Shown: in pieces, positions 2,756-9,294 of the stretch
Numbering within the stretch: position 1 is the first letter of the stretch
Layout: every line of letters starts with the position of its first letter
The notes under the pieces: generated by a model
The model's input: the letters and a program-made list of their open reading frames with translations, nothing else
What the model was told of the DNA's origin: nothing
Database searches by the model: none
Program-made: the position numbers and the translations under genes
DNA from: Jiulongibacter sp.
GTDB lineage: Bacteria; Bacteroidota; Bacteroidia; Cytophagales; Spirosomataceae
Length of the DNA: 52,423 nt
Assembly (NCBI GenBank): GCA_024645245.1
Contig: JAHEBN010000007.1
Location: forward strand, 1-52,423
Direction: 5' to 3'

Positions 2756-3412
2756 ATGAAGTTTTTCATTGATACAGCCAGTCTTACCGAAATTAAAGAA
2801 GCTCAAGATCTAGGTGTTCTGGATGGCGTAACCACTAACCCATCACTTATGGCCAAAGAAGGCATTGGTGGTGATGATAATGTAAAAAAACATTACGTTG
2901 ACATTTGTAATATTGTGGATGGCGACGTAAGTGCTTAGGTTATTTCAACGGATTTTGAAGGCATTGTTCGCGAAGGTGAAATTTTAGCTGCTTTGCACGA
3001 ACAAATCGTGGTGAAAGTACCAATGATCAAAGATGGTATTAAAGCGATCAAATACTTTTCTGAGAGAGGTATACGAACCAATTGCACATTAATATTTTCA
3101 CCAGGTCAGGCTTTACTAGCTGCAAAGGCTGGTGCTACTTATGTATCCCCTTTCATTGGCAGATTAGATGATATTTCAACTGATGGCCTTCAATTAATAC
3201 ATGAAATCCGAACTATTTACGATAATTACGGATACGAAACGGAGATTTTAGCTGCTTCGGTTCGTCATGCAATGCACATTATTAATTGTGCTAAAATTGG
3301 TGCTGATGTTATGACAGGGCCTCTTTCAGCAATTTTATCTTTATTAAATCACCCGCTTACGGACAGTGGTTTACAGAAATTTCTTGCAGATCACGCCAAA
3401 GTGAATAAATAA
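2756..3412 (+). pseudogene. Small transaldolase (FSA/TalC type) interrupted by an in-frame TAG
   Basis: Read through the stop, the frame gives 218 residues, the normal length of the small transaldolase/fructose-6-phosphate aldolase family, which moves a dihydroxyacetone unit between sugar phosphates in the non-oxidative pentose phosphate pathway. Motifs are intact on both sides: FIDTA (Asp6) and TTNPS in the first part, VVKVP (Schiff-base Lys87) and later family motifs in the second. Codon 61 (2936-2938) is TAG, at a place where homologues read SAEV, so a single GAG-to-TAG change explains it. The frame resumes at once with [13 protein letters not shown] and no other lesion. Translation ending here would separate the catalytic Lys from Asp6 and Asn. 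It may be a recent mutation, a sequencing error, or read through; TAG serves as an ordinary stop elsewhere in the window (8363-8365, 26602-26604), so global recoding is excluded. A terminator follows directly. Confidence 0.85.
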
Positions 3413-8516: not shown

Positions 8517-9294
8517 TTTTCAATTGGTAGAAGATTTATTGAATGAGAAGTATGAAAAATACAATAATCCATTATTTATTGAGGTAGACCCTATCCAAAT
8601 ACCACATCGCTTCAAATGCAAAGAAGATATTGAAATAGCCGGATTTATTTCTTCAATTTTTGCATGGGGAAATCGTAAAACCATTTTAAATAAATCAAGC
8701 GAATTTCTTAATTATATGCATAATTCGCCCTATGAATTTCTATTAAATCATAAAACAACAGACCTAAAACCTTTTCAAAAATTCAGGCACCGAACTTTCA
8801 ATGCTATTGATTCGCTTTATTTTATTGAGGTGCTCACTGACATATATCAAAACAAAGGAGGCCTGGAAAATGTATTTTCATTAGGCATAAATGACAATGA
8901 CTTAAGTTCAGAAAATGCATTAGTTGAATTTAGAAATCATTTTTTCAACCAGGAAAATCATCTAAAAAGAACGGAAAAACATATTTCCAGTCCAAAAAAT
9001 GGGGCTTCGTGTAAAAGACTCAATATGTATTTAAGATGGATGGTAAGAAAAGACAATAAAGGTGTTGATTTTGGTTTATGGTCCAAAATAAAACCTAGCC
9101 AATTGGTATGCCCGGTTGATGTTCATGTGAAAAACGTAGCTACCAAACTTGGCCTGTTACAAAATACTGGTAATGAATGGAGTAAAGCATTTAACCTTAC
9201 CCAGTATTTAAAAATGTTTGACCCCGTTGATCCTGTAAAATACGATTTTGCACTTTTTGGAATGGGTATAGAAAATTACTTCGGCGATAAATAA
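8500..9294 (+). CDS. TIGR02757 (DUF2400) family protein
   Basis: About 264 residues. The pattern DPIQIPHRFKCKEDIEIAGF, then WGNRKTIL, then KRLNMYLRWMVRKD and PVDVHVKNVATKLGL near the end is that of the TIGR02757 family, widespread in Bacteroidota and spirochaetes. The C-terminal part resembles helix-hairpin-helix DNA glycosylase folds, but no function has been shown. No ATG is present near the beginning: the candidates are TTG at 8500 or GTG at 8506, both overlapping the end of the small membrane protein gene, which favours coupled translation. A weak AT hairpin follows at about 9292-9312. Confidence 0.8.
   Translation: MEVITDFQLVEDLLNEKYEKYNNPLFIEVDPIQIPHRFKCKEDIEIAGFISSIFAWGNRKTILNKSSEFLNYMHNSPYEFLLNHKTTDLKPFQKFRHRTFNAIDSLYFIEVLTDIYQNKGGLENVFSLGINDNDLSSENALVEFRNHFFNQENHLKRTEKHISSPKNGASCKRLNMYLRWMVRKDNKGVDFGLWSKIKPSQLVCPVDVHVKNVATKLGLLQNTGNEWSKAFNLTQYLKMFDPVDPVKYDFALFGMGIENYFGDK

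Follow-up and report, generated by a model that had tools for sequence, protein, structure and literature searches.

An isolated amber codon at the catalytic glutamate position of the only transaldolase gene found in a draft Jiulongibacter genome

Closest described systems

Transaldolases of the TalC/MipB type (TIGR00875, PF00923) are represented by solved structures such as PDB 1vpx and PDB 3s0c, the latter presumably from Thermoplasma acidophilum, and carry a catalytic Glu in the active site. The gene considered here (tal), which lies in a window of 52,423 nucleotides (the whole stretch of DNA that was analysed), encodes a protein of equal length that matches the family profile from end to end and shares with these enzymes Asp6, Asn28, Lys87, Thr111 and Phe133, but it has a TAG codon where they have the Glu.

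Broken transaldolase genes are not without precedent. In Bacillus methanolicus MGA3, minor sequence changes have broken the sole chromosomal tal, and the truncated product proved inactive; PCR and sequencing verified the altered start codon, and crude extracts still showed transaldolase activity (PMC7092467). Both cases concern a broken single tal, although in MGA3 the change affects the start codon and is confirmed (PMC7092467), whereas the present one is an internal amber codon read from draft sequence. Another precedent is technical: low coverage and low read quality create spurious internal stops in assemblies (PMC11017572), and the present locus is alike in that its conserved gene, also from a draft genome, contains an isolated internal stop. 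Among the titles listed in literature searches on transaldolase with sedoheptulose and Bacteroidetes, on internal stops in assemblies, on catalytic residues and on transaldolase with a premature stop or amber codon, none announces the present case. The one-base lesion looks like an ordinary event, a recent mutation or a wrong base call, rather than a new mode of gene reading.

The amber codon and the residue that it replaces

The tal gene occupies positions 2756-3412 on the forward strand, where 218 codons closed by a terminal TAA encode a TalC-type transaldolase. Its sole internal stop is the TAG at 2936-2938 (codon 61), inside the motif SA*V, and the remaining codons contain neither a second stop nor a change of frame; the translation thus bears out the earlier note, which had placed an amber codon at codon 61 of an SAEV stretch in a gene of normal length. 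The 5' part (2756-2935, codons 1-60) bears Asp6 and Asn28, and the 3' part (2939-3412, codons 62-218) bears the Schiff-base Lys87 and runs to the TAA. When the whole frame was compared with TIGR00875, with an X at the stop, a single full-length match of 279.6 bits was obtained, above the curated cutoff of 245.95 bits, in which the first 60 codons correspond to model positions 1-56 and the remainder to positions 58-211. PF00923 was the only Pfam family matched (193.5 bits). Since the two halves match successive parts of the profile and the related loci invariably have Glu at codon 61 (see below), the stop does split a real transaldolase frame, and chance does not explain it.

Directly upstream, a small SRP RNA gene (RF04183) was found at 2623-2710 on the forward strand, with an Rfam gathering match of 67.8 bits. 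The same RNA lies upstream of tal and on the same strand in 10 of the 12 relatives' loci that were searched, the other two (L010 and L016) having no match above threshold.

The position of the stop, a point absent from the earlier note, is that of the catalytic residue. In an alignment with the E. coli proteins, on which the residue numbers of FsaA and TalB were counted, codon 61 falls in the column of TalB Glu96 and FsaA Gln59, which we take to be that of the acid-base residue, as we likewise assume the other active-site roles given to TalB and FsaA residues. Lys87 falls in the column of the Schiff-base lysines of both enzymes and Asp6 is likewise aligned, so that the Schiff-base Lys and the catalytic Asp are both present in tal, while the acid-base position, Glu in transaldolases and Gln in fructose 6-phosphate (F6P) aldolases, is occupied by TAG. 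Because codon 61 aligns with the acid-base residue, neither half of tal carries it, and the residue lost is, by homology, the catalytic Glu61. One source lists Asp6, Asn28, Gln59, Lys85, Thr109 and Tyr131 for FsaA (PMC13259622), and another gives the transaldolase triad Asp-Glu-Lys as D20-E84-K107 for the B. methanolicus protein (PMC7092467), at a spacing that differs from that of the present tal. The five other active-site residues retained by tal (Asp6, Asn28, Lys87, Thr111 and Phe133) are each found in all 111 related loci, and two features are of the transaldolase type, namely the Phe at 133 (Tyr in FsaA) and the Glu at 61 in the relatives.

Conservation among relatives

The comparison was based on an alignment of 111 related loci, 31 and 80 of them from two genome sets with a possible overlap of species. 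Codon 61 encodes Glu in every one of them (84 GAA and 27 GAG), and none is split or has an internal stop in tal. Conservation in at least 95% of the covering rows was found for 121 columns, each covered by 30 to 111 rows, and tal departs from the majority residue at codon 61 and keeps it at the other 120. These results, together with the match of each half to its own part of TIGR00875, agree with the earlier view that both halves are otherwise intact.

Among 98 other related genomes, 95 have a transaldolase match, and no stop besides that of the window was seen in them among the matches listed. At the level of the family, a match at E <= 1e-60 was obtained for 217 of 221 other genomes and, again among the matches listed, the stop appears only in the window's own gene. 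The codon-61 stop is, in short, not conserved in the related species examined, and a conserved stop was rejected on the basis of its absence from the 111 aligned loci and from the matches listed for the 98 genomes. The genomes returned included none from a second species of the genus, which limits this result at the closest range.

Origin of the stop

Taken as a whole, the evidence makes it very likely that the TAG is an isolated nonsense change at the catalytic Glu61 of a single-copy tal, either a recent mutation or a wrong consensus base, with no role in translation. As for its two forms, there is about an even chance that it is a recent and real mutation in the sequenced lineage, and a slightly smaller one that the draft consensus carries an erroneous base or a minority variant. 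The earlier note had already offered a single substitution or a sequencing error in an otherwise intact gene, and the intact remainder and the invariant Glu of the relatives support it. Three observations count against this explanation. A stop would fall by chance on one of the 3 to 6 active-site residues among the 218 in only about 1 to 3% of cases; moreover, tal was the sole gene kept as broken among 106 surveyed (see below) and no frameshift was found, which indicates an assembly that is not generally poor. The third is the higher nonsynonymous difference after the stop than before it, relative to the nearest relative (see below). The case mainly calls for caution: when a draft genome shows a lone in-frame stop in a gene of central metabolism, this should not be taken for recoding.

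The alternative that survives best, though very unlikely, is functional readthrough, in which UAG would be decoded at some level to yield the full-length enzyme. It would fit with the conserved residues kept in both halves and with the fact that tal is the only transaldolase-family match found, as expected if its product were still needed. However, TAG is an ordinary terminator in this genome: in 649 kb there are 267 stop-to-stop frames that reach 300 codons or more (antisense frames not filtered out), of which 189 end in TAA, 54 in TGA and 24 in TAG, and within the window TAG terminates 2 of 23 long frames, in line with the earlier statement that the code is standard. The codon-61 stop occurs in no relative examined, and the other gene found to be interrupted (nnrD/E, see below) is broken by TAA rather than TAG. 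A suppressor was also sought among the tRNAs, as the earlier note had proposed: none of the 30 tRNA genes found has a CTA anticodon, in a set that is incomplete given that no tRNA-Ile was called and that scoring covered 150 of the 391 first-look candidates. Relaxing the threshold brought in one further match, itself sub-threshold, and ARAGORN found no CTA-anticodon tRNA in 40 stretches of the genome; in a set of this kind the result is suggestive, not proof against a suppressor. Genes for tRNA-Ile are often located within rRNA operons, and these may be missing from the draft genome. The position of the stop is a further difficulty, because readthrough inserting any residue other than Glu would give no usual active site, and the usual near-cognate insertions at UAG (Gln, Tyr and Lys) would not restore Glu61. 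Hence, neither the regulated readthrough nor the low enzyme level maintained by an amber suppressor that had been suggested earlier found positive support.

A variant of this idea regards the amber as a switch, low readthrough with Gln at codon 61 producing a little of an F6P-aldolase-like enzyme in place of transaldolase. Gln does stand in the codon-61 column in E. coli FsaA and, in the alignment of solved relatives, in the chain of PDB 4xz9, which also has Tyr for Phe133 and is presumably the variant engineered by Sautner et al. 2015; this variant is nonetheless highly improbable.

Equally hard to credit is a two-piece enzyme, whose halves would be made separately by reinitiation and then assembled. 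Both parts are long and conserved, and an in-frame TTG at 2993 (codon 80) opens a frame of 139 amino acids that retains Lys87. Nevertheless, the next in-frame ATG beyond the stop is codon 90, past Lys87; Glu61, invariant in the relatives, lies on neither piece; and none of the 111 related loci is split. With the catalytic Glu on neither fragment and an ATG only beyond Lys87, such an enzyme is implausible.

An old and decaying pseudogene is just as improbable. The frame is interrupted, and relative to L003, the nearest relative among the matches listed (90% identical), the nonsynonymous difference per site rises from 0.032 upstream of the stop to 0.094 beyond it, which could mean relaxed selection downstream, while the synonymous difference is at saturation in both parts (0.84 and 0.91, respectively). 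However, the contrast is smaller against other relatives, the ratio of after to before being 1.2 to 1.7 for six of them, while two reference pairs of intact relatives give 1.3 and 2.4; in addition, tal is free of further stops and indels and keeps the majority residue at its other conserved columns. In the other conserved codons there are zero changes over 276 nonsynonymous sites, from which any period without selection on tal may be estimated at roughly 0.011 substitutions per site at most; either the stop would then be of recent date or erroneous, or selection would still be acting on the gene.

Reassignment of UAG to an amino acid in this organism, which nothing beyond tal supports, is the least probable of all and was rejected, since TAG terminates long frames as described above, and tal holds the only in-gene TAG kept in the 106 genes surveyed, one more having been set aside as the low-identity end of an alignment.

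Metabolic consequences if the base is real

If the isolated nonsense change is present in the organism, ribosomes would be expected to halt after 60 residues, the full set Asp6-Glu61-Lys87 would be present on no fragment and transaldolase activity would be lost. No second transaldolase-family gene, which the earlier note had proposed to look for, was found in the 4.55-Mb draft, where no PF00923 match other than tal reached E <= 0.001. The suggestion in the earlier note that the enzyme may be missing is supported, the enzyme being probably absent on the condition that the base is real. A bypass might then consist of transketolase, 6-phosphofructokinase and fructose-bisphosphate aldolase acting via sedoheptulose 1,7-bisphosphate. 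For clostridia with no annotated transaldolase, a published account describes a sedoheptulose-bisphosphate route with a pyrophosphate-dependent phosphofructokinase (PMC7029132). In the present genome, one 6-phosphofructokinase match and one class II fructose-bisphosphate aldolase match were found, both with no stop, and the N-terminal half of transketolase, the only half searched, lies in a 288-residue frame that is also free of stops. Given these intact genes and the broken tal of MGA3, the loss of transaldolase would be plausible. The species would in that case serve as a natural test case for the ability of the phosphofructokinase/aldolase route to replace transaldolase in its family. In metabolic models built from this assembly, the presence of transaldolase should be regarded as uncertain.

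Other interrupted frames in the assembly

The draft assembly comprises 315 contigs with a total of 4,550,241 bases; its listed completeness is 98.5% and its listed contamination 2.19%. The homology survey, in which frames from 1.2 Mb of genome G044 were compared with 649 kb of this genome including the window, covered 106 genes and 34,196 codons and gave 4 raw events, of which that in tal alone was kept; the others (L179 4012, L169 4548 and window 9341) were set aside by eye as gene boundaries or low-identity ends. The reverse control, against G044, covered 102 genes and gave 3 raw events, all at alignment ends and set aside by eye. With frames taken from the loci of 80 relatives, 22 genes yielded 3 raw events, namely tal, nnrD/E (a match of 40% identity) and one terminal end.

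Ab initio scanning of 376 kb under a strict filter, which recovers 1,188 of 3,180 mock stops (37%), returned five candidates: tal, nnrD/E and three that were read as neighbouring genes. With a looser filter, 22 candidates emerged from 649 kb of this genome and 46 from 1.2 Mb of G044, a similar density, so that the raw counts show no excess in this genome. The 22 were sorted by reading the stretches, short ones such as L153 14790, L173 18187 and L175 10759 by eye, and Pfam was run on tal and nnrD/E; the G044 counts were left raw. Also among the 22 is a putative transposase-like frame, named by eye, with an in-frame TGA at about 13100 on the reverse strand of L180.

The nnrD/E gene (L154 7698-9182, reverse strand, G000:C232) has one in-frame TAA, at 8834, inside its YjeF_N domain, and no further YjeF_N match was found in the genome. 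As this gene is unrelated to tal, isolated stops are special neither to tal nor to amber. At the tal loci of L003 and L017, the strand opposite the gene is open over its whole length in one frame, which illustrates how long antisense frames may lead a simple choice of genes astray.
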